DNA of 64,000 bases. Source: Thermodesulfobacteriota bacterium (lineage in GTDB: Bacteria > Desulfobacterota > GWC2-55-46). The notes under the pieces are model-generated. The model was not told the origin of the DNA, ran no database searches, and saw only the letters and a list, made by a program, of their open reading frames with translations. Numbering within the stretch: the first letter of the stretch is position 1; each line of letters opens with the position of its first letter. The stretch covers positions 570,744 through 634,743 of the forward strand of contig CP129479.1 in assembly GCA_030583865.1 (NCBI GenBank), written 5' to 3'. The position numbers and the translations under genes are program-made. Shown in pieces: positions 11,011 to 57,804 of the stretch.

Positions 11011-11156
11011 AAGGCAACCTCTAAAAATTGATCTTTTCCCCGGACTCTTTGTCAGGCCGGGAATAAAAATGCTCACATATTGTCATATATGCTCCGCTTT
11101 TTATTCCCGGCCTTCCTTGATTTCGGGAAAAATCTCTAATTTTTAGAGGTTGCCTT
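11011..11156 (+). mobile_element. family 1 palindromic element, copy A
   Basis: The reference copy of the family. Ends are inverted (GGCAACCTCTAAAAATT at the left, its exact complement at the right). Three nested stems follow: the outer A/T-rich end stem, TTTTCCCCG with CGGGAAAAA, and GGCCGGGAATAAAAA with its complement. The apex holds the near-constant core TGCTCACATATTGTCATAT. The ends GGCAACC/GGTTGCC are flanked by a perfect 4-bp duplication TTAA (left 11009-11012, right 11155-11158). It sits between purH and the ASKHA gene. No coding capacity. Confidence 0.9.
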
Positions 11157-11179: not shown

Positions 11180-12514
11180 TCAGAACCCCATGTTACTTAT
11201 GAACTCCCGCTCGAACCGGGGGCTTCCGGAAAGCGGCACGTATCTGGCAGTTTCAGCCAGATCCTCGGCCTCTTTTTTCTTTTCGTCAGAGAGGGCCAGG
11301 GCCGCCCCCTCGAGCGCGGCGTCTCCGACGAATCTCACGTCCTGCCACTTGCTGTCCAGCAGGCCTATGCCCCGGAGGGCCGCCGGGCTCAGGTGGGCGC
11401 CGAACGCGCCCGCGACGTACACCCGCTCGACCTCTTCGGGCTTTACTCCGGCTTTTTCAAGCAGTACGGCCATACCTGCCCTGGTCGCGGATTTTGCGGT
11501 CTGGAGCGCCCTCACGTCCGCCTGGTTTATCCGGACCTCTCCTTTGGCGTCCCTGTAGAGGACAAAGGAGTTCCCGTCCTTTCCGGGTTTTATCCTGGAT
11601 GCGAGGTTTGTCTTTACCTCGTCACTGTCCAGAATCCTCCCGGACCTGTCTATAGCCCCCGCATTTATGAGCTGGTGTATTGACTCAACCAGCCCCGAGC
11701 CGCATATGCCTCGGGCGGCAGCATTTCCTATGACATCGAGGCGTAGCGCGTCACCATCTATCCGGAGGCCCTCGATCGCACCAGGGCCGGCAATCATGCC
11801 CTGCTCGACTTCTCCGCCCTCGAATGCCGGGCCAGCGGCAGCGGAAGTGGCGAGGACGGTCCCGTTTACGCCAAGGAGTATCTCGCTATTCGTGCCCACG
11901 TCTATGACGAGCGCGGGCCTTTCAGCCTTTTTAAGCCCCAAGGCAAGCGCGACCGCAACCGCGTCGCCGCCGACAAAGCCCCCGATGAGGGGAAAAATGT
12001 AAACCTTTGCGTCGCAATCGAGCCCAGCCTCTGAGGCCGGGAGGCGCTTCGAATCCATGAAGACCGGCCTGTACGGGACTTTCGAGAGCGGCTCCGGCGA
12101 GATGCCGAGAAAGAGGTGCTCCATTACGGTATTACCGGCTATGGAGACCTCCTGCACGAGGTGCTTTCTCTCCCCCGCAAGCTTTTCGATCAGGCCGTTA
12201 CATGCATTCCTGGCCGCCGCCGATATATCCCTGAGAGGACCCGGGCCTGCCAGGGCCGCATCCAGCCTCGATATCACGTCCCGCCCCCATGCGGCCTGCG
12301 GGTTGGGGAGCGACGAGGAAGCCTCGATGGAATTCGACCCGAGGTCAACGAGCGCGCCCGCGATCGTGGTAGTCCCGAGGTCTATGGCTATGCCTAAACC
12401 CGTTTTATCTGCTTTTTTGCTCAATTGGCGGGAGGGCCTGTCGTCTCCATAAAAGATTAAGGCTGGCCCGAGGGCCAGCCTTAATCTTTTATCCTTTTTC
12501 AAGGCGTAAGGCAA
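11180..12514 (-). CDS. ASKHA-domain reductive activator (RamA-like), without ferredoxin domain
   Basis: Related to RamA and other ATP-dependent activators that reduce the cobalt of corrinoid methyltransferases. The actin-like ATPase fold is clear: GIAIDLGTTTIAGALVDL (about 41-58), SIAGNTVMEHL, VIDVGTNSEILLG (about 204), GNAAARGICGSGL and VYVAGAFGAHL. Usual family members are about 600 residues with an N-terminal [2Fe-2S] ferredoxin domain; here none is present. The annotated start (TTG 12514) lies in a family 1 element and the first 22 codons cross a perfect palindrome (12450-12491), so the true start is doubtful; TTG 12424 (LSKKADKTG) is an alternative. No corrinoid protein nearby. Confidence 0.8.
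   Translation of the reverse strand: MPYALKKDKRLRLALGPALIFYGDDRPSRQLSKKADKTGLGIAIDLGTTTIAGALVDLGSNSIEASSSLPNPQAAWGRDVISRLDAALAGPGPLRDISAAARNACNGLIEKLAGERKHLVQEVSIAGNTVMEHLFLGISPEPLSKVPYRPVFMDSKRLPASEAGLDCDAKVYIFPLIGGFVGGDAVAVALALGLKKAERPALVIDVGTNSEILLGVNGTVLATSAAAGPAFEGGEVEQGMIAGPGAIEGLRIDGDALRLDVIGNAAARGICGSGLVESIHQLINAGAIDRSGRILDSDEVKTNLASRIKPGKDGNSFVLYRDAKGEVRINQADVRALQTAKSATRAGMAVLLEKAGVKPEEVERVYVAGAFGAHLSPAALRGIGLLDSKWQDVRFVGDAALEGAALALSDEKKKEAEDLAETARYVPLSGSPRFEREFISNMGF
12450..12491. repeat. perfect 20-bp palindrome at the start of the ASKHA gene
   Basis: TAAAAGATTAAGGCTGGCCC, a 2-base loop, and its exact complement. It has the form of a bidirectional terminator and lies in the first codons of the open frame on the minus strand, which argues that the real gene start is downstream of it. 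Confidence 0.75.
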
Positions 12515-12653
12515 CCTCTAAAAATTGATCTTTTCCCCGGATTCTGTGTCAGGCCGGGAATAAAAATGCTCACATATTATCATATATGCTCCGCTTTTTA
12601 TTCCCGGCCTTCCTTGACTGCGGGAAAAATCTCTAATTTTTAGAGGTTGCCTT
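12508..12653 (+). mobile_element. family 1 palindromic element, copy B
   Basis: Full-length copy with the same core orientation as copy A. The flanks GTAA and TTGA do not match, so any target duplication has decayed. It directly precedes the ASKHA reading frame, whose annotated TTG start lies in its left end. Confidence 0.88.
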
Positions 12654-12714
12654 GAATCAAGGTTTTCACAAAGTGTGCGGGCGACTTGGTAGGCTGCGGA
12701 AACACGAATTCGCT

Positions 12715-12845
12715 CAGGCTGCTCAAAAAGCTCCAGATGCGAGGCCCCCATTGGAATAGGGGGGCGATGAATGTGGCGTATTTTTGTATACGCCGGAGTG
12801 TCCAGCGACGTAGCCTTCGAAGCAGATGGACTTTTGAGCAGCCTG
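12715..12845. repeat. family 2 palindromic repeat (GCTGCTCAAAAAG ends)
   Basis: Left end CAGGCTGCTCAAAAAGCTCC, right end complementary (GACTTTTGAGCAGCCTG), with an inner hairpin around GGCGTATTTTTGTATACGCC. It starts right after the mlaD stop codon on the minus strand and may act as its terminator. No clear target duplication. Confidence 0.8.
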
Positions 12846-17183: not shown

Positions 17184-17340
17184 GTTTTAACGGGTACTTA
17201 ATAACATTTTTGAATCGAGCTTGCAAAGGAAATCGTCAGTGGCGGGCGGGAATGGGGAAAAGATCCATTTCACGCGCTGCCGCGCGGTTAGAGGGCAAGG
17301 CTCGTTTGCCAGCCACCTCCCCCATTTGCATTTAAAACAA
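17184..17340. other. intergenic DNA upstream of alr
   Basis: Between alr and the family 3 repeat I see no gene, no clear promoter and no known RNA. A short GCGCTGCCGCGCGGTT palindrome at about 17276-17291 matches the flank of the other family 3 copies. Confidence 0.5.
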
Positions 17341-17502
17341 CCCCGGGGCATAAGGCGGAGCGAACATAGGGATGGGGGAGGGGCGGGCGAGGCGGGGCTG
17401 TTAGGAGCGAGGCCAAAGGCCGAGCGACATAAGGGCCCGGGGGATGTAGGCGGAAAGGGAGCGGAGCCTTATGCCCGAAAAGCGCGGCAGCGCGTTAAAA
17501 GG
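17341..17502 (+). repeat. family 3 GC-rich repeat, copy 1
   Basis: Begins CCCCGGGGCATAAGGCGGAG and ends with GGAGCCTTATGCCCGAAAAG before GCGCGGCAGCGCG. The inverted pair GGGCATAAGGC/GCCTTATGCCC frames a purine-rich middle (GGGGGAGGGGCGGGCGAGGCG) and an inner GACATAAGGGCC. Copies at 25943-26113 and, inverted, 43979-44150. Confidence 0.8.
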
Positions 17503-17602
17503 CCTTTTATCAGCATGGCATTAATAGAGGGGGAAAAGACCTTATCCATGCGTTCGGCGAGGGGAGGGGAGGGGCTTTTTGAGAGGGAGAAAGCTTGGGC
17601 TA

Positions 17603-19093: not shown

Positions 19094-19237
19094 AGGCAAC
19101 CTCTAAAAATTGATCTTTTCCCGGCACTCTGCGTCATGCCGTGAATAAAAATGCTCACATATGGTCATACATGCTCCGCTTTTTATTCCCGGCCTTCCTC
19201 GATTGCGGGAAAAACCTCTAATTTTTTAGAGGCTGCT
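19094..19237 (+). mobile_element. family 1 palindromic element, copy C (inside the atp operon)
   Basis: Complete copy with core TGCTCACATATGGTCATACA. The left flank is TCCA; the right end reads GAGGCTGC followed by TCCA, so a 4-bp duplication is present if one base of the right end was lost. It sits in the 305-base gap between atpB and atpE. Confidence 0.85.
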
Positions 19238-25654: not shown

Positions 25655-25942
25655 TCCACTGAATTCAGATGGAAAGCCTGTTAGTCCATGCCCCGGAAAT
25701 TCTCCTGCCGGAGACTCTTAGGTAAAAAGATATTTGCCCTGCCGAGTTTTTAAGTATATGCAAAAGGGCCTTTTCCGCACTGCCGTGCGGTATGTGGGTA
25801 AGTCCTCGTTGCTATCCGTCTCCCCATTCCGGCCCGTCCACGTTCACCTATCTTATGTGCTTGCTCGCCTTACCCTCCGGGGTTTGTTGAATACAAAATA
25901 AAGGTGCGCGAAGCGCCGCTCGGTTTTTGTCTTTCCAAACAA
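25655..25942. other. intergenic DNA, nothing recognised
   Basis: I see no coding frame with a ribosome binding site and no known RNA. GGGCCTTTTCCGCACTGCCG near 25770 resembles text at 44450-44470. Confidence 0.5.
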
Positions 25943-26113
25943 CCCAGGGGCATAAGGCGGAGCGAACCTAAGGTTGGGGGAGGGGCGGGCGAGGCGGGGC
26001 AGCAGGAGCTCGGCCCTCAATGGGCCGAGCGACATAAGGGCCGAGCCCGGAGGATGGAGGCGGAAAGAGAGCGGAGCCTTATGCCCGAAAAGAGCGCGGC
26101 AGCGCGCTAAAAG
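25943..26113 (+). repeat. family 3 GC-rich repeat, copy 2
   Basis: Same order and orientation as the copy at 17341: CATAAGGCGGAGCGAAC, purine-rich middle, inner GACATAAGGGCC, GGAGCCTTATGCCCGAAAAG, GCGCGGCAGCGCG. The inner CGGCCCTCAATGGGCCG hairpin differs in sequence from copy 1 but still pairs. Confidence 0.8.
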
Positions 26114-26197
26114 GTTTTTGCACAAGGCTAATAGATTCTTGTCTCGCCTCGTCCTGCTCAGAATGACAAGAAATAGAATTATCAGAGCTTCCCTGGC

Positions 26198-27106: not shown

Positions 27107-27248
27107 AGGCTACCTCTAAAAATTGTTCTTTTTTCTGATCTCTTCGTTGAGGCGGAAATAAAATGCTCACATATTCACATATATGCTCCGCTTTTATTTC
27201 CGCCTCTGCCTCGACCTCAGAAAAAATTTCTAATTTTTAGAGGCACCC
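27107..27248 (+). mobile_element. family 1 palindromic element, copy D (subfamily 2)
   Basis: Ends GGCTACC/GGCACCC, flanked by a perfect 4-bp duplication AGTA. The middle stem TTTTTTCTGA pairs with TCAGAAAAAA and the inner stem GGCGGAAATAAA with TTTATTTCCGCC. Both differ from copy A on both sides. Confidence 0.9.
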
Positions 27249-29638: not shown

Positions 29639-30409
29639 ATGGACATGGACTTCGGCATAGGCGCGGGTACGCTGGTACTGATTGCGCTGGCGGTGCTCTT
29701 TTTATGGAGCGCTGTAAAGATACTACCCGAGTACGAAAGGGGCGTAATATTCTTCCTCGGGCGGTTCCAGGCCGTAAAGGGGCCGGGGCTGACACTTCTC
29801 ATCCCCGGCATCCAGAAGATGATGAAGGTGAGCCTACGTACTGTCGCGATGGACGTGCCTCCGCAGGAGGTCATAACCAAGGACAACGTCTCGGTGAGGG
29901 TGAACGCGGTCATCTATTTCAGGGTGGTGAACTCGGACAAGGCCGTAATCGCGATAGAGAACTTCCTCTACGCCACGAGCCAGCTTGCCCAGACGACCTT
30001 GAGGAGCGTCTGCGGACAGGCCGAGCTCGACGAGCTCCTTACCGAAAGGGAGAATATAAACAAGAGCATACAGGCGATACTCGACCGCCAGACCGACCCC
30101 TGGGGCATAAAGGTGAGCATAGTCGAGGTCAAGGCCATAGACCTACCCGAGGAGATGAAGCGCGCCATGGCAAAGCAGGCCGAGGCCGAGAGGGAGAAGA
30201 GGGCCAAGATAATCCACGCGGAAGGCGAGGCTGTTGCAGCCACCCGGATATTCGACGCAGCCGAGCTCCTCGCAAAGAACCCGGTATCGCTACAGCTCCG
30301 GTATCTCCAGACGCTTACCGAGATAGCCGCGGAGAAGAACTCGACCATACTCTTCCCGCTGCCCATGGACCTCATAAAGCCGTTTCTGAAGGCCTTGAAG
30401 ACGGAATGA
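29639..30409 (+). CDS. slipin (stomatin-like SPFH/Band 7 protein)
   Basis: A 256-residue membrane scaffold protein. One N-terminal hydrophobic segment (about 9-26) is followed by [21 protein letters not shown], the stomatin signature, and the SPFH domain (about 30-190) with [11 protein letters not shown] and [17 protein letters not shown]. The C-terminal part is a helical [20 protein letters not shown] coiled coil. It forms oligomers in the inner membrane. The adjacent NfeD-type protease is the usual operon partner. ATG behind GGAGGT. Confidence 0.95.
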
Positions 30410-30413
30410 CAGG

Positions 30414-31097
30414 ATGGCCGAAAACCACCCCGCGTCAGGCCACAGGAAAAGGCTCAAGGAGAGGTTCCTCAAGTCCTCGCTCCAGGGCCTGCACGACTAC
30501 GAGGCCGTAGAGCTCCTCCTTGCCTACGCCATCCCGAGGAGGGACGTAAAGCCCCTTGCCAAAAAGCTGCTTAAGGAGTTCAAGGGGCTTAAAGGGGTAC
30601 TGGAGGCCTCTCCGGAGAGGCTCAAGGAAGCGAGCGGTCTCGGCGAGGCGAGCGCCCTCCTGCTGGCGCTCGTAAGGGAGGCGGCCAGGGCATATCTTTC
30701 GGAGAGGAGCACCTCCTTTAGGGGGGTCGTATCTTCCCCGAAGGACGCCGTGAGGGTGCTGCGAGATTCTCCGGAAGGCGCTGGAAAAGAGGGCCTTTTC
30801 GCGCTCTATCTGAACTCCAAGAACGAGGTCCTCGGAGTGGAGTCGATGGGAGAGGCTTCTGAGCCGGTTTCCCCCAAGACGGTCATCAGGAAGGCCTTCA
30901 GCCACAACGCCAGGTCGATGATACTTGTGAACTCGAAAAAGGGGAAGGCAGTTGCCGCGGCAGGGGAGCGGGGGCTTGCCGCGGAGATAGACGCCGCGGC
31001 CTCGTCCATAGACATACTCGTGCACGATTACATAATCGCTGGGGACGAGGGGTTGCTGAGCGCGAGGGAGCTGGGGTGGCTGAGGGCTAAGAATTGA
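30414..31097 (+). CDS. radC: RadC family protein lacking the JAMM metal motif
   Basis: A 227-residue protein 4 bases after the slipin gene. The N-terminal helix-hairpin-helix part (HRKRLKERFLKSSLQGLHDY, YELLLAY-like segment, LKEASGLGEASALLL) and the C-terminal JAB fold (LFALYLNSKNEVLGVESMGEA, then TVIRKAFSHNARSMILVNS) are in order. Canonical RadC has HNHPSGDP and a following Asp as zinc ligands; here the place reads VNSKKGKAVAAAGE (about 176-189). The fold is kept but a zinc peptidase activity is not expected. Biological role of RadC is unsettled in general. Confidence 0.85.
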   Translation: MAENHPASGHRKRLKERFLKSSLQGLHDYEAVELLLAYAIPRRDVKPLAKKLLKEFKGLKGVLEASPERLKEASGLGEASALLLALVREAARAYLSERSTSFRGVVSSPKDAVRVLRDSPEGAGKEGLFALYLNSKNEVLGVESMGEASEPVSPKTVIRKAFSHNARSMILVNSKKGKAVAAAGERGLAAEIDAAASSIDILVHDYIIAGDEGLLSARELGWLRAKN

Positions 31098-31100
31098 TTC

Positions 31101-31246
31101 AAGGGCAAGCTTGAAAAAATTGAGCTTTACCCGGATTCTGCGTAGTTACGGTAATAAAAATGCTCACATATTGTCATATATGCTCCGCTTTTTATTCCAG
31201 GCCTTCCGGAAAAGCGGGAAAAATCTCTAATTGTTAGAGGTTGCCT
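31101..31246 (+). mobile_element. family 1 palindromic element, copy E (degenerate left end)
   Basis: Begins 3 bases after the radC stop. The core TGCTCACATATTGTCATATA is exact, but the left arm has diverged (GTTACGGTAATAAAAA against TTTTTATTCCAGGCC), so the inner stem no longer pairs at its base. Flanks TCAA and TACA match in three of four bases. Confidence 0.82.
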
Positions 31247-31252
31247 ACAACG

Positions 31253-31680
31253 ACTTGATTTGAAAATTGGTGCCCCTCTTTTTTGAAGAGGGGCAGGGGA
31301 GATTATCTTTCTTCCAGGCAGCTTCTTTATTCCATTTAGAGAAACGGTCAGAAACCCCCGGCCTTTCAAGGCCGGGGATGAATGGCCGCCCGTAGCGAAG
31401 CCAGCGTAAGCTGGCGTAGCGGAGGCAATATCGCCTCACGGTTTCCCGATACCCCGGCCTTCAGGCCGGGGAGAGGTTCATCAGCTTGCTGAAAAACTCC
31501 GTTTTTATTCTCTCTCGGGTTTAATACCCCGCAGCTTGCTGCGCTGTCTTTTAACTCCTCCCCCTTGATGGGGGAGGTTGGGAGGGGGTGAAGGATAAGT
31601 CACCCTCCCCTCTTATCCCCTCCCATCAAGGGAGGGGATGTTTGAAGATACCCCGCAGCTTGCTGCGGGGAGGTTCATTT
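31253..31680. repeat. cluster of short hairpin repeats
   Basis: No gene. 31268-31305: TGCCCCTCT/AGAGGGGCA hairpin followed by GGGGAGATTATC. 31344-31372: CCCCGGCCTTTCAAGGCCGGGG. 31388-31425: GCCAGCGTAAGCTGGC. 31449-31480: ATACCCC hairpin GGGGAGAGGTTCAT. 31482-31510: inverted copy of the GAATAAAAACGGAGTTTTTC block. 31553-31640: CTCCCCC hairpins. 31648-31678: ATACCCC hairpin GGGGAGGTTCAT with another stem. The hairpins with GGTTCAT flank resemble the right ends of IS200/IS605-type elements. Confidence 0.65.
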
Positions 31681-31802
31681 CAGGCTGCTCGAAAAGCTCC
31701 ATATGCGAGGCGTCGAGGAGCGAGGAATGCGGCGTACTTTTCGTGTACGCCGCAGTGACGAGCGACGAAGACAACGAAGCAGATGGACTTTTTCAGCAGC
31801 CT
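31681..31802. repeat. family 2 palindromic repeat
   Basis: CAGGCTGCTCGAAAAGCTCC to GACTTTTTCAGCAGCCT, inner hairpin TGCGGCGTAC ttttc GTGTACGCCGCA. Lies 36 bases downstream of the thiD stop. Confidence 0.8.
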
Positions 31803-31838
31803 TTTCTGAAAAAGAAAGGATCCAGGTTTAGCCAGGCC

Positions 31839-32585
31839 TCAAGCGCGCGGCCGCTCCCTCAGGACCCTCACAAGGTATGCCCTTGCGTCAGCCACCGCCT
31901 CTCCAACGCCCTTGCCTTTGGCAAGCCCGGCGGCTATGCCTGCCGAGAGTATGCACCCGGTGCCGTGGAAACGGCCTATCCCGCCCTTAAGCCGCCTTCC
32001 CCTGTAGTATCTGAACGACAGCCCGTCGAATAACACGTCCACCGGCTCTCCCTCAAGGTGGCCGCCCTTCACGAGCGCGTGCCTCGCGCCCATTTCGAAT
32101 AGCCGCCTTGCCGCGAGTTCCATCTCTTTTACACCGTTTATCCGCCTTACTCCAGTCAGGGCCGCTGCCTCGTCAAGGTTCGGCATGACGACATGGATTG
32201 ATGCAAGGATGGACCTGATTTCAGAAAGGCCGTCCTTCGTAAGTAACGACTTCCCGCTCGTTGACCGGAGCACCGGGTCGAGCACCACGTTCGGGAGTGA
32301 CCGCCTTTTTATCAGGTTCCTTATCGCCCGGAGGTTTTCGGGGCTGCCAGCCATGCCGATCTTTACCGCGTTGACCTCGAACTCTTCCAGAAGGGCATCG
32401 GCCTGCCTTGCCACAAAGCGCGGCGGTACAGGGAGAGCAGCCTTGAAGTCGGTAGAATTCTGGGCCGTAAGCGCCGCGGCCACCGAAAGGCCGCACACCC
32501 CGAGCTCGTGGAAGGTAAGGAGGTCCCTCTGGAGGCCCGCGCCGCCCGAGGGGTCTGACCCCGCTATGGTGAGGACCGTTTTCAT
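31839..32585 (-). CDS. thiD: hydroxymethylpyrimidine/phosphomethylpyrimidine kinase
   Basis: A 248-residue ribokinase-fold enzyme for two phosphorylations in thiamine synthesis. It begins VLTIAGSDPSGGAGLQRDL (about 4-22); MPNLDEAAALTG (about 133-144), VLVKGGHL-like HALVKGGHLEG (about 168) and the anion hole/catalytic Asp region FHGTGCILSAGIAAGLAKG (about 209-227) are present, although the usual GTGC/TLS reads GTGCILSA. It overlaps the DUF445 gene by 4 bases, so the two are cotranscribed. No other thi genes in the window. Confidence 0.94.
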   Translation of the reverse strand: MKTVLTIAGSDPSGGAGLQRDLLTFHELGVCGLSVAAALTAQNSTDFKAALPVPPRFVARQADALLEEFEVNAVKIGMAGSPENLRAIRNLIKRRSLPNVVLDPVLRSTSGKSLLTKDGLSEIRSILASIHVVMPNLDEAAALTGVRRINGVKEMELAARRLFEMGARHALVKGGHLEGEPVDVLFDGLSFRYYRGRRLKGGIGRFHGTGCILSAGIAAGLAKGKGVGEAVADARAYLVRVLRERPRA

Positions 32586-33187
32586 GAAAGCCCGAAGAGG
32601 TAGGTGAAAAGGGACTGGAAGACGCCGATAATGAAGCCCATTATGCCCCCGAGGTATTCGAGATGCTTAAGCTCCCTGGTTATGAAGTCCGTAAGGAGCC
32701 TCTCGAACCTCATGAGGTCGAGCTGGTCTATGCGCGTTACCAGCAGCTCCTTTACGTCTATCCTGTCCCTGACCTTTGCCGCAAGCGTACCCTTTTTCCT
32801 GTCGAGGTGAGTTACTATCTCCCTCGTAAGGAGGAGCTTGATCTGGCTCTTGAGGTTCTCCGAGACGAGGCCCACGACAGGGAGCTTCAAGAACCTTGAG
32901 GAGAACCTGTGCTCCACGGCCTCCTCCACTGTCCTTTCGACCTCCCTTTCCCAGTTGAGCCCCGAGAGGGCCTTCCCAAGGTCCTCTGAGGAGAGGAGTT
33001 CTTTTTCTATGGTCCGGGCTATGGACCTTGCTATCTCCTTCCGCCTCTTCGGTATTATGCCCTGTATGCGGAAGCCGAGCACCTCCAGCGGGATATGCGG
33101 CCTGAAAAGCAGCTTTATCGCGACGTAGTTCGTGAGCCAGCCTATGGCGGCCCCGATTATGGGGGGGAGTATGAGATTAAGGTACAT
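32582..33187 (-). CDS. DUF445 family membrane protein
   Basis: A 201-residue protein with a hydrophobic N-terminus (PPIIGAAIGWLTNYVAIKLLFRP, about 8-30), a signature of DUF445, a long charged helical middle and a C-terminal hydrophobic segment (YLGGIMGFIIGVFQSLFTYL). The family is found in many bacteria next to cell-envelope or quinone genes; no function is established. It is half the length of the larger DUF445 proteins, as in the short YheB-like branch. Translation of thiD is coupled to its end. Confidence 0.88.
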   Translation of the reverse strand: MYLNLILPPIIGAAIGWLTNYVAIKLLFRPHIPLEVLGFRIQGIIPKRRKEIARSIARTIEKELLSSEDLGKALSGLNWEREVERTVEEAVEHRFSSRFLKLPVVGLVSENLKSQIKLLLTREIVTHLDRKKGTLAAKVRDRIDVKELLVTRIDQLDLMRFERLLTDFITRELKHLEYLGGIMGFIIGVFQSLFTYLFGLS

Positions 33188-33200
33188 CTGTTGATTTTAG

Positions 33201-33331
33201 AGGCTGCTGAAAAGTCCATCAGCGTCAAAGGCTACGTCGCTGGACACTCCGGCGTACACGAAAAGTACGCCTCATTCCTCGCTCCCCTATTCCAACGGGG
33301 GCCTCGCTTCTGGAGCTTTTTGAGCAGCCTG
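33201..33331. repeat. family 2 palindromic repeat, with possible target duplication
   Basis: AGGCTGCTGAAAAGTCCATC to GGAGCTTTTTGAGCAGCCT, inner hairpin GGCGTACacgaaaaGTACGCC. TGATTTT occurs at both borders (33191-33197 and 33332-33338), which could be a 7-9-bp target duplication. Confidence 0.75.
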
Positions 33332-33357
33332 TGATTTTGAGTTTTTTAGCAACCTGT

Positions 33358-33390
33358 CAGGTGTAAATCCCAAATTTTTAGAGGTTGATA
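33358..33390 (+). repeat. family 1 relic (right end only)
   Basis: AAATCCCAAATTTTTAGAGG followed by TTGATAT matches the right terminal arm of family 1; the rest is missing. Confidence 0.55.
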
Positions 33391-33450
33391 TAAGTTTCTT
33401 GGGGATGCTCAAGAGGGGTAACCGGCGGAGAGGTTGAGGGCGGGGCCTGC

Positions 33451-33726
33451 TCAGCGGAAGCCCTTTTTGGACGCCTCCTCCTCGAAATACTTCTTGTAGA
33501 GTATGTCCCACTCGCGGCTTCCCTCGGGGACATCTCTTGAGAGCGAGCGTATCTTTGCCCGGGCCGCGGTGTCGGCCTCGTCCTCGACCTTCAAATACCC
33601 GGTCATGGCCTTCTTTATCTCGGCAAGGGCCTTGTCCTCGTCGGTAAAGTCCACGAGGTCGTCCTTCCATACGCCGTCGAAAAGGAGGTGGGCTATGTGC
33701 GATATCCTGTCGTCCGAGAGCCTCAA
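33451..33726 (-). CDS. DUF507 family protein (second of a pair)
   Basis: A 91-residue protein of DUF507, acidic and helical, starting MRLSDDRISHIAHLLFDGVW and ending with the family's EWDILYKKYFEEEASKKGFR. Function unknown; the two DUF507 genes nearly always sit side by side in deltaproteobacteria. Its TTG start at 33726 is part of the 4-bp target duplication (TTGA on the minus strand) of family 1 copy F, and the AGAGG in the element's end lies 5 bases upstream, where a ribosome binding site belongs. Confidence 0.88.
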   Translation of the reverse strand: MRLSDDRISHIAHLLFDGVWKDDLVDFTDEDKALAEIKKAMTGYLKVEDEADTAARAKIRSLSRDVPEGSREWDILYKKYFEEEASKKGFR

Positions 33727-33868
33727 GGCAACCTCTATAAATTAGAGTTTTTTACCGCTTTTCCCTGAAGGGCGGGAATAAAAAACGGAGCATATATGTG
33801 AATATGTGAGCATTTTTATTCCCGGCTGACACAGAGCCCGGGGAAAAGGCCATTTTAAAGGTTGCCTC
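33725..33868 (-). mobile_element. family 1 palindromic element, copy F (between the DUF507 genes)
   Basis: The only copy with the core in the opposite orientation (GAGCATATATGTGAATATGT on the plus strand). The ends GGCAACC/GGTTGCC are flanked by a perfect 4-bp duplication TCAA on the plus strand (33723-33726 and 33868-33871). Confidence 0.9.
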
Positions 33869-34148
33869 AAAGGACTATGCCCCTTTCCCTGGCCAGCTTG
33901 CCCTTTATCATGTTGAACATCTTCCTGTAATCGAGCCTGTCCTTGTCGATCGCTCCGGCATGGCTCTGGAGAAGCCCCTCTACCTCCCTGTCGAGCTCGT
34001 CCTCGGCCCGGAGGTCCGCCAAAAAGACCTCGGTCATCTTCTCGAAGGCCTTTCTCTCGTCGGCCTTGAAGACCACGAGTCCCCCGTCTTTAAGCCTTTC
34101 GAGGACGTTCCTGACTATCTTCTCGACCTGGTCCCTGGAGAGTTTCAT
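33867..34148 (-). CDS. DUF507 family protein (first of a pair)
   Basis: A 93-residue paralogue of the next gene: MKLSRDQVEKIVRNVLERLK at the start, a central acidic helix and LDYRKMFNMIKGKLARERG at the end, matching DUF507 in length and layout. Its stop TGA abuts the end of family 1 copy F. Before the insertion its last bases CTTTGA contained both this stop and the TTG start of the second DUF507 gene. ATG 34148 is preceded by GGAG. Confidence 0.88.
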   Translation of the reverse strand: MKLSRDQVEKIVRNVLERLKDGGLVVFKADERKAFEKMTEVFLADLRAEDELDREVEGLLQSHAGAIDKDRLDYRKMFNMIKGKLARERGIVL

Positions 34149-34189
34149 GAACCGAAAATATCACAGGATACCAATGTTTGCAAGGGTGT

Positions 34190-34218
34190 TGACACGTGGC
34201 CTTTTTTAGACTATAAAT
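34190..34218 (+). promoter_or_regulatory. sigma70 promoter of the PA2779-like gene
   Basis: TTGACA (34190-34195), 17 bases, TATAAA (34213-34218), followed by a 5' leader of about 175 bases. Confidence 0.75.
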
Positions 34219-34398
34219 TATCGAATGCTCCTTGCGGAGCTCAGTCAAACGAGGCAAGCCCTCTTGCATTGAAAACCGAGGAAAAGCCCTCTCCCGCTAT
34301 CGAGTTTTTTGCGGTCTTAAGCCCGCTATCATCGCAGGCAGTTTTGTGTATCTCTTTCGGCAGCGCACTTTTAACAACAGAAAAGGGGGAGTGCAGTT

Positions 34399-34809
34399 AT
34401 GAAAGTCGTAAAAAGCTTCTATTTCAGGCAGGTCGCTCTTGTCCTTGCCTTCACAATGCTCGTCCTCGGAAGCATCCCCACAAAGAGCATGGCTCTTGTG
34501 ATCGGCTCTGACGCCGTGGTCGCTGCCGTGGCCGCAGAAGAGGCCCGCGAAGCTGACATTGCCAGGGTTCAGAGGGTGCTTGAGAGCAAGCTCGTGGCGG
34601 ACAAGCTCCAGCAGGCGGGCCTTTCGGAGGCCGAGATAAACGAGAGGCTGAGTAAGCTTTCGGACTCCGAGCTGCACTCGTTCGCCTCCCAGCTCGAAAG
34701 CCTCTATCCCGGCGGCGACGCCCTGAGCGCGATAATAGCGCTCCTTATAATCGTCATACTCGTGCTGGTGGTCCTTAAGCTCGCGGACAGGAAGATAGTC
34801 ATAAGATAG
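34399..34809 (+). CDS. PA2779 family protein
   Basis: A 136-residue envelope protein. N-terminal hydrophobic segment (about 10-32, QVALVLAFTMLVLGSI) typical of the family, then a charged helical middle with AEEAREADIARVQRVLESKL and LSEAEINERLSKLSDSEL, and a C-terminal membrane helix (about 110-128) with a basic tail DRKIVIR. The family is named after a Pseudomonas protein; it is regularly next to a C39-like peptidase (PA2778), as here. No biochemical role known. Its own promoter and terminator surround it. Confidence 0.85.
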   Translation: MKVVKSFYFRQVALVLAFTMLVLGSIPTKSMALVIGSDAVVAAVAAEEAREADIARVQRVLESKLVADKLQQAGLSEAEINERLSKLSDSELHSFASQLESLYPGGDALSAIIALLIIVILVLVVLKLADRKIVIR

Positions 34810-34820
34810 CGCAACATGGC

Positions 34821-34852
34821 GGGGCCCGGGCTCAGGCCCGGGCCCTTTTTTT
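34821..34852 (+). terminator. terminator after the PA2779-like gene
   Basis: GGGCCCGGGC TCA GGCCCGGGCCC followed by seven T, 12 bases after the stop. Confidence 0.9.
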
Positions 34853-34903
34853 CTGGCCCCGGCTGGCCGGGGCCTCTTCAAGGAAAGCTTGCCGGTCCTC
34901 GAT

Positions 34904-35046
34904 GGCAGCCTCTAAAGATTGGCCTTTCCCCGGACTCTTTGTCAGGCCTGGAACAAAAATGCTCACATGTTAATCATATATGCTCCGCTTTTTATTCCAG
35001 GCCTCCGGAAAAAGCAGGAAAAATCTCTAAATTTTTAGAGGTTGCC
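34904..35046 (+). mobile_element. family 1 palindromic element, copy G (supplies a ribosome binding site)
   Basis: The inner stem GGCCTGGAA pairs with TTCCAGGCC, differing from copy A on both sides. Its right end TTTAGAGGTTGCC stands 2 bases before the ATG of the C39-like peptidase gene. Confidence 0.88.
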
Positions 35047-35048
35047 GC

Positions 35049-35618
35049 ATGTCGCTCAGCAAGGCCCTTTTTCTTTCCGTTCTCCTGCTCTTCATCTCCG
35101 GGTGCGCCCCGGCAAGGGATGCCGTGCTCGAATCCCTCAGGGCCGACCCGGCTGCAGGCGCCTATATAGAAGGCGTGCCCTTTTTTCCGCAAGACGAATA
35201 CCTGTGCGGCCCGGCAGCGCTTGCCGGAGTGATGGCCTTTTACGGCGCCGAAGAGTCGATGGACGGGGTGGCCGGGGCCGTATATAATGAGAAGCTCAGG
35301 GGCACTCTCCCGATGGACCTCCTCGTCTACGCAAGGGACAGGGGGTTTGAGACGAGCTATTACAAGGGGGGATTCAAAGACCTTTCGGAAAGGGTCGGGA
35401 AAGGCGAGCCCCTGATATTATTCCTCAACCTGGGCTATGACATCTACCCGGTCGGGCATTACATCGTGGCCGTGGGGATACGCGAAAAGGACGGCGTGGT
35501 CCTGGCCCACTCCGGGACTGAAAGGGAAAAGGTCTACGGCATGAAGGAGCTTCAAAAGGCATGGTCCAGGACAGGGTATTCGACGCTACTTGTCCGCCCA
35601 GAGGGGAGGGAAAATTGA
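35049..35618 (+). CDS. PA2778-like C39-family cysteine peptidase lipoprotein
   Basis: A 189-residue protein. The signal ends in a lipobox (LLFISGCAP, Cys about 19). The papain-like C39 fold shows the nucleophile in DEYLCGPAALAGVM (Cys about 55) and the His in PVGHYIVAVGIREKDGV (about 138), with Asp/His-Ser region VLAHSGTE after it. PA2778-type peptidases are anchored in the membrane and occur with PA2779-type proteins and TPR lipoproteins, as here. AGAGG from family 1 copy G lies 7 bases before ATG. Its TGA overlaps the TTG of the next gene. Confidence 0.88.
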   Translation: MSLSKALFLSVLLLFISGCAPARDAVLESLRADPAAGAYIEGVPFFPQDEYLCGPAALAGVMAFYGAEESMDGVAGAVYNEKLRGTLPMDLLVYARDRGFETSYYKGGFKDLSERVGKGEPLILFLNLGYDIYPVGHYIVAVGIREKDGVVLAHSGTEREKVYGMKELQKAWSRTGYSTLLVRPEGREN

Positions 35619-36247
35619 AAAGGGTACACGCTCTCGCGCTTTTCGCGTTCCTTTCGCTTGCGTCGTGCGGGGTGTTTGAGGTCAAGGACTCGACCCCGCT
35701 TTCATTCGACGAGCACATGAGGCTCGGCTCCATCTACGAATCCCAGGGCAAATATGAGTTGGCGCTCCGCGAATACGAGAGCGCGCAGGCCATCGATACC
35801 AAGGAGGCCAAGGCCTACTTTGCCCTGGGGAATGTTTACCTGAGGACGGGCGAGTACGGCAAGGCGGAAAAGAGCTATGCCAGGGCAATCGAGCTCGGGC
35901 CGAGGCCCGAGTACTACAATAACCTTGCATGGGCGCTCATGGAAAAAGGCGACCTCCAGGCGGCAAGGGCCTCGGCTGAGGAGGCCCTTAAAAGCTCTCC
36001 TCCAAAGGAAAAATTCATCTACCTTGACACGCTCGGCGTCCTTGAGATGAGGGCCGGGGAGTACGTGTCGGCTGAGGAGAAGTTCCTGCAGGCCGCTGGC
36101 ACGGTGCCAGAGGGGCGCGCAGACGCTCTCTCCGAGATATACAGGCACCTCCGCGAGCTTTACAGGGCAAGCGGAGAGCCGGAGAAGGCCTCCACAATCG
36201 ACCGGAAGCTCGAAGTATTCAGGGGCGGAGACAAAGAAGGGCTTTGA
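35615..36247 (+). CDS. TPR-repeat lipoprotein
   Basis: A 210-residue protein starting with TTG in a TTGA overlap with the peptidase gene. Signal sequence KRVHALALFAFLSLASCGVF with a lipobox Cys near residue 18. Four or five tetratricopeptide repeats follow (HMRLGSIYESQGKYELALRE, AYFALGNVYLRTGEYGKAEK, YYNNLAWALMEKGDLQAARA and two more), giving a protein-binding solenoid. Probably a partner of the PA2778-like peptidase. Its stop overlaps the rlmB start, so the set PA2778-TPR-rlmB is one translation unit. Confidence 0.88.
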   Translation: MKRVHALALFAFLSLASCGVFEVKDSTPLSFDEHMRLGSIYESQGKYELALREYESAQAIDTKEAKAYFALGNVYLRTGEYGKAEKSYARAIELGPRPEYYNNLAWALMEKGDLQAARASAEEALKSSPPKEKFIYLDTLGVLEMRAGEYVSAEEKFLQAAGTVPEGRADALSEIYRHLRELYRASGEPEKASTIDRKLEVFRGGDKEGL

Positions 36248-36978
36248 GGACTGTATACGGAATAAACCCGGTGCTTGAGGCGCTTCGCTCGGGGGCCGTC
36301 ATCGACAAGGTCTTGATCTCCGAGGGGAGGACCGGCAGGGCGGCTTCCGACATCATGAAGCTCGCGGGCCAGAAAAAGGTCGAGGTCGCAAAGGCCGCCC
36401 CGCACGAGATTGCGAAGATTGCCGGGACCGAGAGGCACCAGGGGGTAGTTGCGCTCCTGCATGAGGAGTTCAGGTATTCGGATATCGAGGACCTCATTGC
36501 CGCATGGAAGGCGAAGGGCGGGCAGGCCTTCTTTCTCGTGCTCGATTCAGTGCAGGACCCGCAGAACCTCGGCTCTCTCGTAAGGACCGCCAATGCCGCC
36601 GGGGTGCACGGGGTCGTCATACCGAAAGACAGGGCGGCCGAGGTGACGCCGGCTGTCGTCAAGGCCTCGGCAGGCGCGACCGAACACACGCTGATAGCCC
36701 GGGAAGTGAATATCACGAGGGTGCTGGAGAGGCTCAAGGAGGAAGGGGTCTGGGCGGTCGCCGTTGAGGCCGGGTGCAGGGACGCGCTCTGGGGCACTGA
36801 CCTCGATAGAGATCTGGCCCTCGTAATCGGGAGCGAGGGAAAGGGCATAAGGAGGCTCGTCAGGGAAAGTTGCGACCTCTGCGCCTCCATACCGATGGCC
36901 GGCCAGGTAAATTCCCTTAATGCCGCGCAGGCCGGGGCCATAGCGATGTTCGAGGCCCTGAGGCAGCGGGGGAGATAG
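36244..36978 (+). CDS. rlmB: 23S rRNA (guanosine-2251-2'-O)-methyltransferase RlmB
   Basis: A 244-residue SpoU (SPOUT) methyltransferase. The N-terminal RNA-binding part starts RTVYGINPVLEALRSG; the knotted SAM domain has motif 1 VQDPQNLGSLVRTANAAGVH (about 102-121), motif 2 LVIGSEGKGIRRLVRE (about 196-211) and motif 3 IPMAGQVNSLNAAQAGAIAM (about 219-238). TTG start overlaps the previous stop. Could methylate another nucleotide, but the length and context fit RlmB. Confidence 0.93.
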   Translation: MRTVYGINPVLEALRSGAVIDKVLISEGRTGRAASDIMKLAGQKKVEVAKAAPHEIAKIAGTERHQGVVALLHEEFRYSDIEDLIAAWKAKGGQAFFLVLDSVQDPQNLGSLVRTANAAGVHGVVIPKDRAAEVTPAVVKASAGATEHTLIAREVNITRVLERLKEEGVWAVAVEAGCRDALWGTDLDRDLALVIGSEGKGIRRLVRESCDLCASIPMAGQVNSLNAAQAGAIAMFEALRQRGR

Positions 36979-37130
36979 CAGGCTGCTGAAAAAGGCCAAT
37001 CTGCTGTGTCGTCTTCAACATTGGCAACTCCGGCGTACAAAAAAGAAAATTATATTGTAGGGCGCGCTATGCGCACCATTACAAATCCCCCGCCATCCCC
37101 TTTAGAAAGGGTCTTAGGAAAGGGGGATAA
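36979..37130. repeat. truncated family 2 repeat and short composite repeat
   Basis: 36979-37045 holds the left half of family 2 (GCAGGCTGCTGAAAAAGGCC, GGCGTAC). 37055-37130 holds GCGCGCTATGCGCACCATTA followed by a CCCCTTTAGAAAGG hairpin, the same order as at 24128-24200. Confidence 0.65.
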
Positions 37131-42222: not shown

Positions 42223-42364
42223 GGCAGCCTCTGAAAATTGATTTTTTCCCCGGACTCTGTGTCAGGCCGTTAATAAAAATGCTCACATATTGTCATATAT
42301 GCTGCGCTTTTATTCCCGGTCTTCCTCGATTGCGGGGAAAAATCTCGAATTTTTAGAGGTTGCC
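42222..42364 (+). mobile_element. family 1 palindromic element, copy H (inside the pdh operon)
   Basis: Full-length with core TGCTCACATATTGTCATATA. The flanks CTGA and CTGG match in three of four bases. It lies between pdhB and the E2 gene. Confidence 0.88.
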
Positions 42365-43795: not shown

Positions 43796-43978
43796 GGACT
43801 GGCGCGGTATGCTTCAGCCCGGCAGGATTTTTTGTCATTCTGAGGGAGCGTAAGCGACCGATAATTTTTGCAGGACAGCAAAAATTGAATGCCGAGCCTC
43901 TTAGCGAGGCAGCCCGAAGGGTCGAGCCCCAGGACGGGGCGAGATAAGAACCTCGTATACAAGCCCCGTCGCAAAAAG
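43796..43978. other. intergenic DNA, nothing recognised
   Basis: After the E2 gene I see TCATTCTGAGGGAGCGTAAG, a TTTTTGCaggacaGCAAAAA hairpin (43867-43885) and GCCTCTTAGCGAGGC (43895-43909), but no gene and no clear terminator. Confidence 0.5.
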
Positions 43979-44150
43979 ACCTTTTAACGCGCTGCCGCGC
44001 TCTTTTTGGGCATAAGGCTCCGCTCCCTTTCCGCCTCCTTCCTCCGGGCTCGGCCCTTAAGTCGCTCGACCTTCGGCCTCGCTCCTGCTGCCCCGCCTCG
44101 CCCGCCCCTCCCCCATCCCCATGTTCGCTCCGCCTTATGCCCCGGGGTGG
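43979..44150 (-). repeat. family 3 GC-rich repeat, copy 3 (inverted)
   Basis: Reads on the minus strand like the copies at 17341 and 25943: GGGGCATAAGGCGGAGCGAA, GGGGGAGGGGCGGGCGAGGCG, GGGCATAAG-type inverted end, GAGCGCGGCAGCGCG. A degenerate fourth copy may extend over 44205-44285. Confidence 0.8.
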
Positions 44151-44287
44151 TTTGAAATACAAAAACAAAAACGAGTGAGATTCTTTTTGTCTTGAAACAA
44201 ACACCGGAGGGTAAGGCGAGCGCAGCATAAGGGAGGAAGAGCGTGAACGGGCCGGGGCGGGAGGAGCAAAGCGACTTAAGGGGCCCG

Positions 44288-45243: not shown

Positions 45244-45386
45244 GGCACCCTCTAAAAATTGATCTTTTCCCCGGACTCTCTGTCAGGCCGTGAATAAAAA
45301 TGCTCACATATTGTCATATATGCTCCGCTTTTTATTCCCGGCCTTCCTTGATTGCGGGCAAAATATCTAATTTTTGGAGGTTGCCA
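45244..45386 (+). mobile_element. family 1 palindromic element, copy I
   Basis: Complete copy; left end GGCACCC, right end GGTTGCC, flanks AAGT and AGGT (three of four match). It occupies the promoter region of sodB. Confidence 0.87.
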
Positions 45387-45919: not shown

Positions 45920-46061
45920 AGGCTACCTCTAAAAACGATTATTTTTCCTGATCTCTGTGTCAGGGCGGAAATAAAAATGCTCACATATTACCATATATGC
46001 TGCGCTTTTATTTCCGCCCTTCCTTGACCTCAGAAAAAATTCTTAATTCTTAGAGGCACCC
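45920..46061 (+). mobile_element. family 1 palindromic element, copy J (subfamily 2)
   Basis: Ends GGCTACC/GGCACCC with a perfect 4-bp duplication TTTA on the plus strand (45917-45920 and 46062-46065). The stems GGGCGGAAATAAAA/TTTTATTTCCGCCC and TTTTTCCTGA/TCAGAAAAA are of the same subfamily as copy D. Confidence 0.9.
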
Positions 46062-54394: not shown

Positions 54395-55906
54395 TTATTC
54401 CCCAGGGCCCGTCCCCCATGCCTCAAGGTCCTTGATATACCTGTAGGCAGCAGGGTCCCCGAGCTCGTGAGCCTTTTTCATGCTGAGATATGAGTTCCTC
54501 ATGTCGCCCAGGTGCATGTAGGCCTTGCCGAGGTCTACATGCGTCGAGGCGTCGGAAGGGTCGAGCTCAGCTGCCTTACGGAAGTCATCGAGAGCGTCCC
54601 CGTACCGGCCAGCGATGGCATGGGCCGTGCCGCGCCCCTTGAACCCCTGCGCGTTGTCCGGGTATAACGCTATCTGGCGTCCCCATAACGCGAGCGAGTC
54701 TTTCCAGACCGCCTGTTGCCTGAACGTCATGGCGGAGAAGAGGGCCGAGGCCACGAAGACGGTCAGCAGCACGGGGACGAAGGCCTTCGCGCGCCTCCGG
54801 ACCGCCCAGCCTGCCCCTGCGGCGGCGAGCACCGCGAAGCCTATGCCAGGGATGTACATGAACCTGTCGGCGGCGGCGTGCATCCCAATCTGCAATATTC
54901 CGATTATCGGAAGGAGAGTTATAAGGAAGTAGGCCCATACGGAAATATAAACCCTGCTCCACCTGCAAAGGTAGAAGGCGAGCGCGGTAATTGCCGAAAG
55001 CGCAAGGGCGTAGACCGCGAAGATTGTGTCGAAGCCCGCGGTGAAATCGCGGGGATAGAGCGGGGCGAGGTTGACCGGAATAAGCGTTTTATAGATATAA
55101 AAAAGGTAGCCCCTTGCTGTGATGTGCAGGCGGCCCTCAAGCGGGAGCGCTTCCGTGGATACTATGACGCTGTCCACCGTATGAGACCAGACGTTCAGAA
55201 GCCCCGTTGCCATGCTAAACGCGAAAAAGGGGGCCTTCTCCAGCAAGAGCCTCTTCCAGCCGTCAGTCCCGGACCTCTCAAGGGGGTAGTAGTCGAGTAT
55301 GAGGAGCACAAGAGGCATGGTGACCGTCATGGGCTTGCTCATAAGCGACAGTACGAAAAATATGAGCGTCAGCGCGTAGGACGAAGCCTTACGGCCCTTT
55401 ACATAGCTCAGATAGGCATGCAGGCCCAGGAGGAAAAAAAAGGCGTTAAGGACGTCCTTTCTTTCACTTACCCAGGCAACCGACTCGACCTTGAGGGGAT
55501 GGAGCCCGAAGAGGAGGCCCGCTGAAATGGCGATTATGAAGAGCACCCTCGGCTCCAGGCCGCCCCTTGCGCCAGCGAGCCTCGCTGCCAGCAATGCCAC
55601 GAGGAAGGCGTTCGAGCCGTGGAGTATCGAATTTGAAAGGTGGTAGCCGAAAGGGTCGAGGCCCCAGAACGCGTAATCGAGCGAGAAGGAGAGGAGCGTT
55701 ACCGGGATCCAGGCGCCGTTAGCGAATGAGGTGAAGATGGCCTTGAGGTTCAGGCCTCGTATGGCCGTGTTGTTATGGACGTACATGAGGTCGTCCCAGT
55801 TGACGAAATCGAACGAGAGCGAGGGGAGGTAGATGACGAAAGAGGCCAGGGCCGATATGAGTGCGGCAACAAGGACTATCTTCGGTTGTCTTCTGTTTTC
55901 ATTCAT
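54395..55906 (-). CDS. TMTC-like GT-C glycosyltransferase with TPR tail (paralogue 1)
   Basis: A 503-residue membrane protein. Helix 1 is followed by FVNWDDLMYV (about 33-42), with the Asp pair expected for the catalytic site of GT-C enzymes; HPLKVESVAWVSERKDVLNA (about 138-157) matches the HP..E..A motif of TMTC O-mannosyltransferases. About ten helices follow. The C-terminal 100 residues hold two TPR repeats (AIAGRYGDALDDFRKAAELD, VDLGKAYMHLGDMRNSYLSM). A role in glycosylating exported proteins or envelope sugars is inference. First and shortest of three tandem paralogues. Confidence 0.78.
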   Translation of the reverse strand: MNENRRQPKIVLVAALISALASFVIYLPSLSFDFVNWDDLMYVHNNTAIRGLNLKAIFTSFANGAWIPVTLLSFSLDYAFWGLDPFGYHLSNSILHGSNAFLVALLAARLAGARGGLEPRVLFIIAISAGLLFGLHPLKVESVAWVSERKDVLNAFFFLLGLHAYLSYVKGRKASSYALTLIFFVLSLMSKPMTVTMPLVLLILDYYPLERSGTDGWKRLLLEKAPFFAFSMATGLLNVWSHTVDSVIVSTEALPLEGRLHITARGYLFYIYKTLIPVNLAPLYPRDFTAGFDTIFAVYALALSAITALAFYLCRWSRVYISVWAYFLITLLPIIGILQIGMHAAADRFMYIPGIGFAVLAAAGAGWAVRRRAKAFVPVLLTVFVASALFSAMTFRQQAVWKDSLALWGRQIALYPDNAQGFKGRGTAHAIAGRYGDALDDFRKAAELDPSDASTHVDLGKAYMHLGDMRNSYLSMKKAHELGDPAAYRYIKDLEAWGTGPGE

Positions 55907-55932
55907 TTCCGGTCCTGATCATCGGGGCCAGC

Positions 55933-57726
55933 TCATTTACCCGGGCCCTGCTCTTCGAGGTCCTTCAGATACCTTGAAGCTGCCGGGTCCCCGAGGTCAT
56001 GGGCCCTTTTCATGCTGCGGTACGAGTTTTCGCTGTCGCCCAGGTGCATGTAGGCCTTTCCGAGGTCTATGTGCGCCGAAGGGTCCGCAGGGTCGAGCAG
56101 GACGGCGTTCTTGAAGTCCTCGACCGCCTTACCGTACTGGCCGGATATGGCATGTGCAACGCCGCGGGCCCTGTAAGCGGCCTTGTTCCGAGGGTCTTTG
56201 GCCAGGACGAACGTGAGGTCCGCGGTCCCCTCCTCGAACCTGCCTGCGCTTACAAGGGCGCCCGCGCGCTTCATATAGGCGTCGGTCGATACCGGGCCGA
56301 GCTCTATGGCCCGGTCCAGGTTTTCGATGGCAAGGTCGAATTTACCGAGGCTTATATACGCGTTGGCGCGGTTCATGAACCCGCTCGCCGTGTCCGGGGT
56401 GATCCTGCTAAGGTCCTCCATGGCGCGGTCGAGCCTCCCCTGGACGAGATAGGCGTTTCCCCTGTTTACATACCCGTATGGATGGTCCGGGAAGAGCCTT
56501 ATCTGCTGGTTCCAGAGTGAGAAAGAGTCCTTCCATACGGATATCTGCTTGAGCGCAAGAATTGAGAGCAATGCCGAGGCCGCGATAATTACAGCCAGAA
56601 CCGGCGCGAACGCGCCCTTTTTCCTTTCCGCCAGCCATCCGGCCCCTGCCGCGACGAGCACGGCGATTCCCATGCCCGGGATATATGTGTACCTGTCAGC
56701 CGCGGCCTGCATCCCAACCTGCACGAGCCCTATTACAGGGATCAGCGTTATCGCGAAATAGGCCCAGGCCGCGATGAAGGCCCCGCTCCGCCTCCGAAGA
56801 TAGATCGCGAGCGCGGTCAGGGCCGAAAGCGCGAGCACATAGAGGGCGAAGAGGCCGTTGAGGCCAGCGGGGAAATCCCTGGGATATACGGGCGCGAGGT
56901 TGATCGGCACGAGGGTCTTGTAGATATAAAAGAGGTAGCCTCTGGCCGCGATATGGAGGCGGCTCCCGAAGGCGAGCTCTTCCGCCGGGACCATGGCCAT
57001 GGCCTGGGACAACATGGTCGCGAGCACGGCCGCCAAGCTCATCAGGAAGAAAGGGAGCTTCTCGGTCAAGAGCCTCCTGAAACCCTCCTTCCTTTGCCTC
57101 CCGAGCGGATACAGGTCGAGTATGAGGAGCATGAACGGCATGGTGACGGTCATGGGTTTGCTCAAGAGCGACAAGACAAAGAAGACGAGCGTCAAAACAT
57201 ATGAGGAAGCCTTTTTGTTTCTGGCGTAGCCGAGATAGGAAAGGACGCCCAGGAGGAAAAAGAAGGCGTTAAGGACGTCCTTCCTTTCGCTTATCCATGC
57301 AACCGACTCCACCCTGAGGGGATGGAGCCCGAAGAGGAGCCCTGCTGAGATGGCGACTATGAAGAGCGTCTTTGCATTAAAGCCCCTTGTCCCCGCGAGC
57401 TTCGCGGCGATGAGGGCCACAAGGAAGACGTTGGCCGCGTGGAGAGCCGAGTTCGTCAGGTGATAGCCCAGGGGGTTCAGTCCCCATATGGCGTGATCGA
57501 GAGAGAGGGACAGGAACGTTACAGGGACCCACGTCCCGAGGATTACTGATGTAAAGGCCCACTTGAGGCCGGGCCCCTGCAACCGGGGGTTTTCATAGAC
57601 ATAGAGCTGGTCGTCCCAGTTTACGAAATCGAAGCCGAGGGAAGGGAGATAGAGCGCGAACGCGGCTATGGCCGATAAAAGGGCCGCGATAAGTATTATT
57701 TTTCCTGGTTTGCTTTCTTCCGGCAT
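55933..57726 (-). CDS. TMTC-like GT-C glycosyltransferase with TPR tail (paralogue 2)
   Basis: A 597-residue paralogue of the neighbours: FVNWDDQLYVYENPRL near residue 35, HPLRVESVAWISERKDVLNA and MQAAADRYTYIPGMG, the same order and spacing. The TPR tail is about 95 residues longer than in paralogue 1 (GYVNRGNAYLVQGRLDRAME, GFMNRANAYISLGKFDLAIE, AYMKRAGALVSAGRFEEGTA, then the two shared repeats). Its stop is 26 bases from the start of paralogue 1, so the three are probably cotranscribed. Confidence 0.78.
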   Translation of the reverse strand: MPEESKPGKIILIAALLSAIAAFALYLPSLGFDFVNWDDQLYVYENPRLQGPGLKWAFTSVILGTWVPVTFLSLSLDHAIWGLNPLGYHLTNSALHAANVFLVALIAAKLAGTRGFNAKTLFIVAISAGLLFGLHPLRVESVAWISERKDVLNAFFFLLGVLSYLGYARNKKASSYVLTLVFFVLSLLSKPMTVTMPFMLLILDLYPLGRQRKEGFRRLLTEKLPFFLMSLAAVLATMLSQAMAMVPAEELAFGSRLHIAARGYLFYIYKTLVPINLAPVYPRDFPAGLNGLFALYVLALSALTALAIYLRRRSGAFIAAWAYFAITLIPVIGLVQVGMQAAADRYTYIPGMGIAVLVAAGAGWLAERKKGAFAPVLAVIIAASALLSILALKQISVWKDSFSLWNQQIRLFPDHPYGYVNRGNAYLVQGRLDRAMEDLSRITPDTASGFMNRANAYISLGKFDLAIENLDRAIELGPVSTDAYMKRAGALVSAGRFEEGTADLTFVLAKDPRNKAAYRARGVAHAISGQYGKAVEDFKNAVLLDPADPSAHIDLGKAYMHLGDSENSYRSMKRAHDLGDPAASRYLKDLEEQGPGK

Positions 57727-57804
57727 TCCGGACCCGGTCCATACGAAGATTGTTGAAGGTTTTCAGAAGTTTACCACCGCGCCCCGCCGGTTTGCAAGAC
57801 GATA

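Follow-up and report, generated by a model that had tools for sequence, protein, structure and literature searches.

REP and REPIN elements, the repeats of the RAYT/Y1 transposases, are not known to be flanked by target-site duplications. The YPAL elements of Yersinia (RU-2) were reportedly seen, in the paper that first described them, to insert close to stop codons. They are short palindromic intergenic elements (~168 bp) that duplicate their target and are missing from the corresponding sites of relatives, and they are thought to be carried as hairpins on the transcripts of upstream genes (PMC2229807). RUP, Correia/NEMIS and ERIC elements (~100–170 bp) have terminal inverted repeats, many intergenic copies and a stable hairpin RNA (PMC2229807), while BOX of Streptococcus pneumoniae is an interspersed repeat sitting at gene ends, where it provides the stop codon of 36 genes (PMC3049150). 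Much of this is found again in the repeat family that we describe here. Its target-site duplication is, however, fixed at 4 bp and its inverted repeats are terminal, whereas YPAL has duplications of 3–26 bp and internal inverted repeats (PMC2229807), so that identity with YPAL is ruled out. RUP, Correia/NEMIS and ERIC end in 5'-TA-3' and duplicate TA (PMC2229807), in contrast to the T/A-rich 4 bp and the different terminal repeat of the present family. BOX, a modular element, provides stop codons out of its own sequence; at the locus considered below, stop and start both come from the duplicated target. Identity with REP/REPIN is likewise ruled out by the 4-bp duplication, and a search of the genus for Y1_Tnp (PF01797) gave weak matches only, one of them in the genome under study. 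Our literature search brought up no report of a YPAL element restoring both codons of a gene overlap, and nothing relevant on the insertion of elements into gene overlaps.

The window, the whole 64,000-nt stretch of DNA that was analysed, holds two DUF507 genes separated by one member of this family, copy F (Table 1). In all likelihood, a non-autonomous MITE transposed into the TTGA by which these genes overlapped, and the 4-bp duplication of the target kept both codons. On the minus strand, the junction reads ...GTCCTTTGA[GGCAACC...AGAGGTTGCC]TTGAGGCTC, where the brackets enclose copy F, and its codons are GGC ATA GTC CTT TGA, then the element, then TTG AGG CTC TCG. The stop of the upstream gene lies within one TTGA of the duplication and the start of the downstream gene within the other, and the duplicated TTGA is the 4-nt gene overlap of the relatives. 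Just 5' of the TTG, the codons in frame are TAA TTT ATA GAG GTT GCC; as no usual start is among them, TTG is the only usual start giving the conserved N-terminus. A first-pass annotation had placed the element exactly on TTGA, with TGA and TTG each restored by the duplication and AGAGG from the element's end 5 bases before the TTG. The TCAA flanks, the two codons read within them and the position of AGAGG agree with it throughout, save that its interval, 33723–33871, begins correctly and ends one base too far, the second TCAA ending at 33870.

Table 1. Features of the DUF507 junction and other copies of the element family, in window coordinates
Feature	Position	Strand	Remarks
Upstream gene, N-terminal half of DUF507	33867..34148	-	93 aa; ATG start; TGA stop (33869-33867)
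Downstream gene, C-terminal half of DUF507	33451..33726	-	91 aa; TTG start (33726-33724)
Copy F	33727..33866		140 bp; MITE-like repeat between the two DUF507 genes
TCAA (coding strand TTGA)	33867..33870		upstream copy of the target duplication on the coding strand; holds the TGA stop
TCAA (coding strand TTGA)	33723..33726		downstream copy of the target duplication on the coding strand; holds the TTG start
AGAGG, Shine-Dalgarno-like end of terminal repeat	33732..33736	-	5 bases before TTG
Family copy	11013..11154		exact TTAA duplication
Family copy	12510..12651
Family copy	19095..19237
Family copy	27108..27248		exact AGTA duplication; diverged subfamily; one end GGGTGCC
Family copy	31104..31245		one end altered (GGCAAGCTTGAAAAA)
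Family copy	34904..35046		2 nt before ATG of the gene at 35049
Family copy	42223..42364
Family copy	45244..45385
Family copy	45921..46061		exact TTTA duplication; diverged subfamily; one end GGGTGCC

The two genes are halves of a single domain. Gene 1 (upstream) covers positions 1–93 of the 182 of the Pfam profile PF04368 (E 4.9e-16, 59.7 bits) and gene 2 positions 95–182 (E 1.5e-20, 74.4 bits), both exceeding the curated cut-off of 24.7 bits. They align, respectively, to residues 2–92 and 98–183 (the latter with E 1.4e-13) of PDB entry 8t8k, the single 183-residue DUF507 protein of Aquifex aeolicus, whose halves are related by pseudo-twofold symmetry (PMC10439177). The overlap therefore marks the point where two parts meet that other organisms make as one protein, and this gives coupling good cause to be conserved. 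A profile search for DUF507 covered 59 genomes, ranging from the same genus to the same class, and the junctions were then read out. Leaving the window genome aside, this gave 48 intact pairs, in 47 related genomes that belong to several orders and families within the class. All 48 overlap by exactly 4 nt and lack the element (34 TTGA, 12 ATGA and 2 GTGA), and a gap of +140 between intact DUF507 genes is found in the window genome alone. Within the genus, two genomes (G005, L063; G004, L062) display a clean empty site, with TTGA and well-aligned flanks. The empty site that had been reconstructed by removing the element and one TCAA, a TTGA overlap, is thus what the relatives have, a 4-nt NTGA overlap in every intact pair and TTGA itself in these two genomes of the genus; a second gene starting elsewhere, or an unrelated spacer, was looked for in the relatives and did not appear.

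It could still be argued that the spacer is old in this operon, that the relatives acquired their overlap by deletion and that TCAA flanks the element by chance, inasmuch as the element is also present in another genome of the genus, G001. This is barely credible: a precise deletion of the element with one copy of the duplication would be needed many times over to account for the overlap without element in 47 other genomes of several families and orders, and such duplications are a property of the whole family. In G001 the element sits at the same TTGA (TTTGA followed directly by GGCAACC), a left junction common to it and the window genome, and the gene 1 flank has ~92% nucleotide identity. 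The second DUF507 gene is absent from this assembly (L061, G001:C9). However, the sequence past the G001 element adjoins a different copy of the element in G005 (C19:44358-44504 compared with C19:44510), and C20, the G001 contig that carries the following gene, breaks off 504 bases from its end. These two facts point to repeat-induced misassembly as likelier than gene loss, which we set aside; contig C9 of G001 is a probable chimera formed at an element copy, making the second gene seem absent.

Copy F is an imperfect palindrome from end to end, its coding strand being GGCAACCTTTAAAAT...ATTTATAGAGGTTGCC. The terminal inverted repeats of the family are GGCAACCTCTAAAAATT, present at both ends, and this motif has 91 forward and 93 reverse matches over the window genome, against 0 for the reversed control. 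Among the stretches of that genome that were read, 111 element matches were collected, 97 of them near full length, and the family amounts to ~100 copies of about 140–147 bp. All five relatives in the genus have copies, with ~100 each in some genomes of the genus. An exact 4-bp duplication flanks 32 of the 97 copies, as compared with 2.75 expected from shuffled pairings, and the exact match reaches 5 bp in one copy and 6 bp in none; when four genomes are pooled, 54 of 153 copies have it, copies without an exact duplication making up about two-thirds. The duplicated bases have a T/W/W/A-like composition, and the target is A+T-rich and TTAA-like. Copy F holds no open reading frame of at least 60 aa. 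Empty sites are seen in relatives for two insertions, in the DUF507 pair and between purM and purN. Being short and non-coding, with terminal inverted repeats, a fixed 4-bp duplication and empty sites in relatives, the family is of the MITE kind. As for the transposase that would mobilise it, DDE_Tnp_1 (PF01609) and DDE_Tnp_1_2 (PF13586) are absent from the six genomes of the genus, and no autonomous copy with the family ends was seen in the searches for these two domains and PF01797.

The sequence of events was very probably as follows. In an ancestor of the window genome and its close relative, an element of ~140 bp with GGCAACCTCTAAAAATT ends and an A+T-rich target would have been moved by a transposase acting in trans, and inserted into the TTGA of a two-gene DUF507 operon. 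A 4-bp duplication on an overlap of n nt leaves 5-n positions at which both genes are spared, that is, four for a 1-nt overlap and one for a 4-nt overlap; a single placement would thus have kept both stop and start, and other insertions in this junction would be lost to selection. The native Shine-Dalgarno sequence would then lie 140 nt away, and AGAGG, 5 nt from the edge of the element, would serve instead. That a transposase acted in trans, that the insertion survived purifying selection, that the new Shine-Dalgarno sequence is used and that coupling was lost are inferences. The most likely account is ordinary transposition together with purifying selection, the duplication happening, by luck, to be as long as the overlap. 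More generally, the length of the target duplication sets which junctions a transposon can enter without harm, and 4 bp just suffices for a 4-nt overlap.

The separation of overlapping genes that had been proposed holds at DUF507 and is not unique to it. In the window genome (G000), a copy at C1:1457290-1457430 (L013) stands between purM and purN in the context ATGATTTAA[element]TTAATGGTCAAC. The junction is TTAA[element]TTAATG, with TTAA duplicated, and in four relatives (G001, G002, G003 and G005) the genes overlap by 1 nt, TAATG, without element. Read in this way, the junction is a second, independent split, in which the duplication restored both stop and start. Among tandem genes in bacteria, no layout is commoner than the four-base overlap, and whether coupled translation needs the overlap itself has been debated. 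Overlaps of the -4 and -1 types (ATGA, TTGA, TAATG) dominate tandem gene pairs (PMC10666635), and the DUF507 and purM–purN pairs of the relatives are of precisely these types, here undone by a transposon with both codons kept. This is a natural experiment rather than a new kind of system, and one carried out twice, on the DUF507 N-half and C-half and on purM and purN, with a 140-nt spacer, unchanged coding sequence and a replacement Shine-Dalgarno sequence. The first case bears directly on the need for overlap in 1:1 assembly, since Aquifex has the two DUF507 halves as a single symmetric protein. Other genes have start codons at the edge of an element. That of acn lies in or beside the duplication in G000, G001 and G005 (L028, L162, L182), and so does that of nuoL, at the nuoK–nuoL junction, in G005, while in G000 it comes two bases further on (L023, L175); both starts are closely preceded by AGAGG or a variant of it that belongs to the element. 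Between mreC and mreD (L116), a partial copy ends directly before the mreD start. To judge from these positions, acn, nuoL and mreD apparently use a ribosome-binding site derived from the element. A spacing rule forbidding starts 4–8 nt from the element end seemed likely from the first genome and was unsupported over four, where 8, 3, 6 and 6 starts fall at 0–3, 4–8, 9–13 and 14–18 nt, respectively.

How surprising are two insertions into overlaps? The composition-weighted share of gene-sparing positions is ~0.0006 for 4-nt overlaps and ~0.0001 for 1-nt overlaps, so that an even spread over such positions predicts ~0.07 overlap insertions for the ~100 copies of the window genome, against the two seen. 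It might be, then, that the family targets the 3' ends of genes or their junctions, and that overlap insertions are a by-product of this targeting, not of selection. We consider this quite possible while leaning the other way. The copies do crowd around stop codons: 59 of 153 (from the whole of G000 and from loci L154–L233 of G001, G004 and G005) lie -1 to +8 nt from one, and, when conditioned on interval and duplication composition, 44 are found in tandem pairs where 20.8 are expected and 12 in convergent pairs where 4.9 are expected, counts that rest on crude, codon-score-based gene calls and include orthologous copies that are not independent. Against this family-wide excess, the two overlap insertions become unremarkable. 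However, selection against insertion between a promoter or ribosome-binding site and a start codon would shift copies towards 3' ends alike, and the excess at stop codons fits either targeting or selection.

The first-pass annotation had further held that the two genes were separated without damage to either. The coding sequences are indeed intact; expression may nonetheless have suffered, in view of the 140-nt gap and of the predicted pairing of the Shine-Dalgarno sequence. In reporter work, an intergenic distance of ~20 nt nearly abolishes termination–reinitiation (PMC10666635), which implies that 140 nt should uncouple the DUF507 pair: coupling of this kind should be lost at the new gap. 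Against a generic anti-Shine-Dalgarno sequence, the element-borne site scores -7.0 kcal/mol, equal to the native site of the reconstructed empty junction, and AGAGG of copy F falls in predicted paired structure (unpaired probability 0.01–0.09). Loss of coupling, the pairing of the new site and the absence of gene 2 from the G001 assembly would all suit a gene 2 that is not translated from TTG and is a dying half-gene. We deem this very unlikely, as gene 2 is intact and, of the substitutions between it and its G005 counterpart, 19 are synonymous and 2 non-synonymous, a pattern in which it looks constrained, and as its absence in G001 resembles misassembly at a repeat.

RNA structure suggests one more scenario. 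The family consensus folds into a single end-to-end hairpin (-76.8 kcal/mol), and copy F RNA folded in isolation reaches -45.2 kcal/mol (z -4.17 versus shuffles); alignment-wide covariation of the hairpin (RNAalifold) retained just 14 central pairs. No known RNA family was found at 30000–37000, and no pattern matched a promoter or intrinsic terminator within copy F. It is conceivable, if rather unlikely, that the hairpin acts as a coupler and the terminal repeat as a portable ribosome-binding site. In the folded state, the stop codon of the first gene and the start codon of the second would meet at the base of the stem, which a ribosome finishing at that stop would open, freeing AGAGG. Fold calculations with the first 13 nt covered give partial support: the Shine-Dalgarno sequence is predicted to be released at purM–purN (unpaired 0.41) and acn (0.61), but not at copy F (0.09) or nuoL (0.00). 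If the hairpin did couple, the family would be suited to enter operon junctions without uncoupling their genes.

Several minor observations concern the repeats themselves. Some copies in the window genome (e.g. 853051, 539809, 186815, 681516 and 178331) display mirrored changes that keep the two ends complementary, with the pairs GGCGACC/GGTCGCC, GGCAGCC/GGCTGCC, GGCTACC/GGTAGCC, TGCAACC/GGTTGCA and GGCAACT/AGTTGCC; subfamilies, mutation through repeat correction or structural selection could each produce such patterns. A second interspersed family, AGGCTGCTGAAAAAGTCC...TTTTTGAGCAGCCTG, is present in the window at 12684–12844, 31679–31802, 33201–33362, 59627–59778 and 62397–62545. What seem to be its ends appear on some copies of the first family (window 31104; L131; L011), which hints at nesting or at chimeras of the two families. 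A third family, of ~190 bp, has copies at 17325–17507, 25933–26119 and 43973–44163, with 89–95% identity and one copy inverted. Finally, three copies of 200–300 bp direct repeats, spaced by ~1.8 kb, occupy 54408–59559, and are probably repeated coding units.
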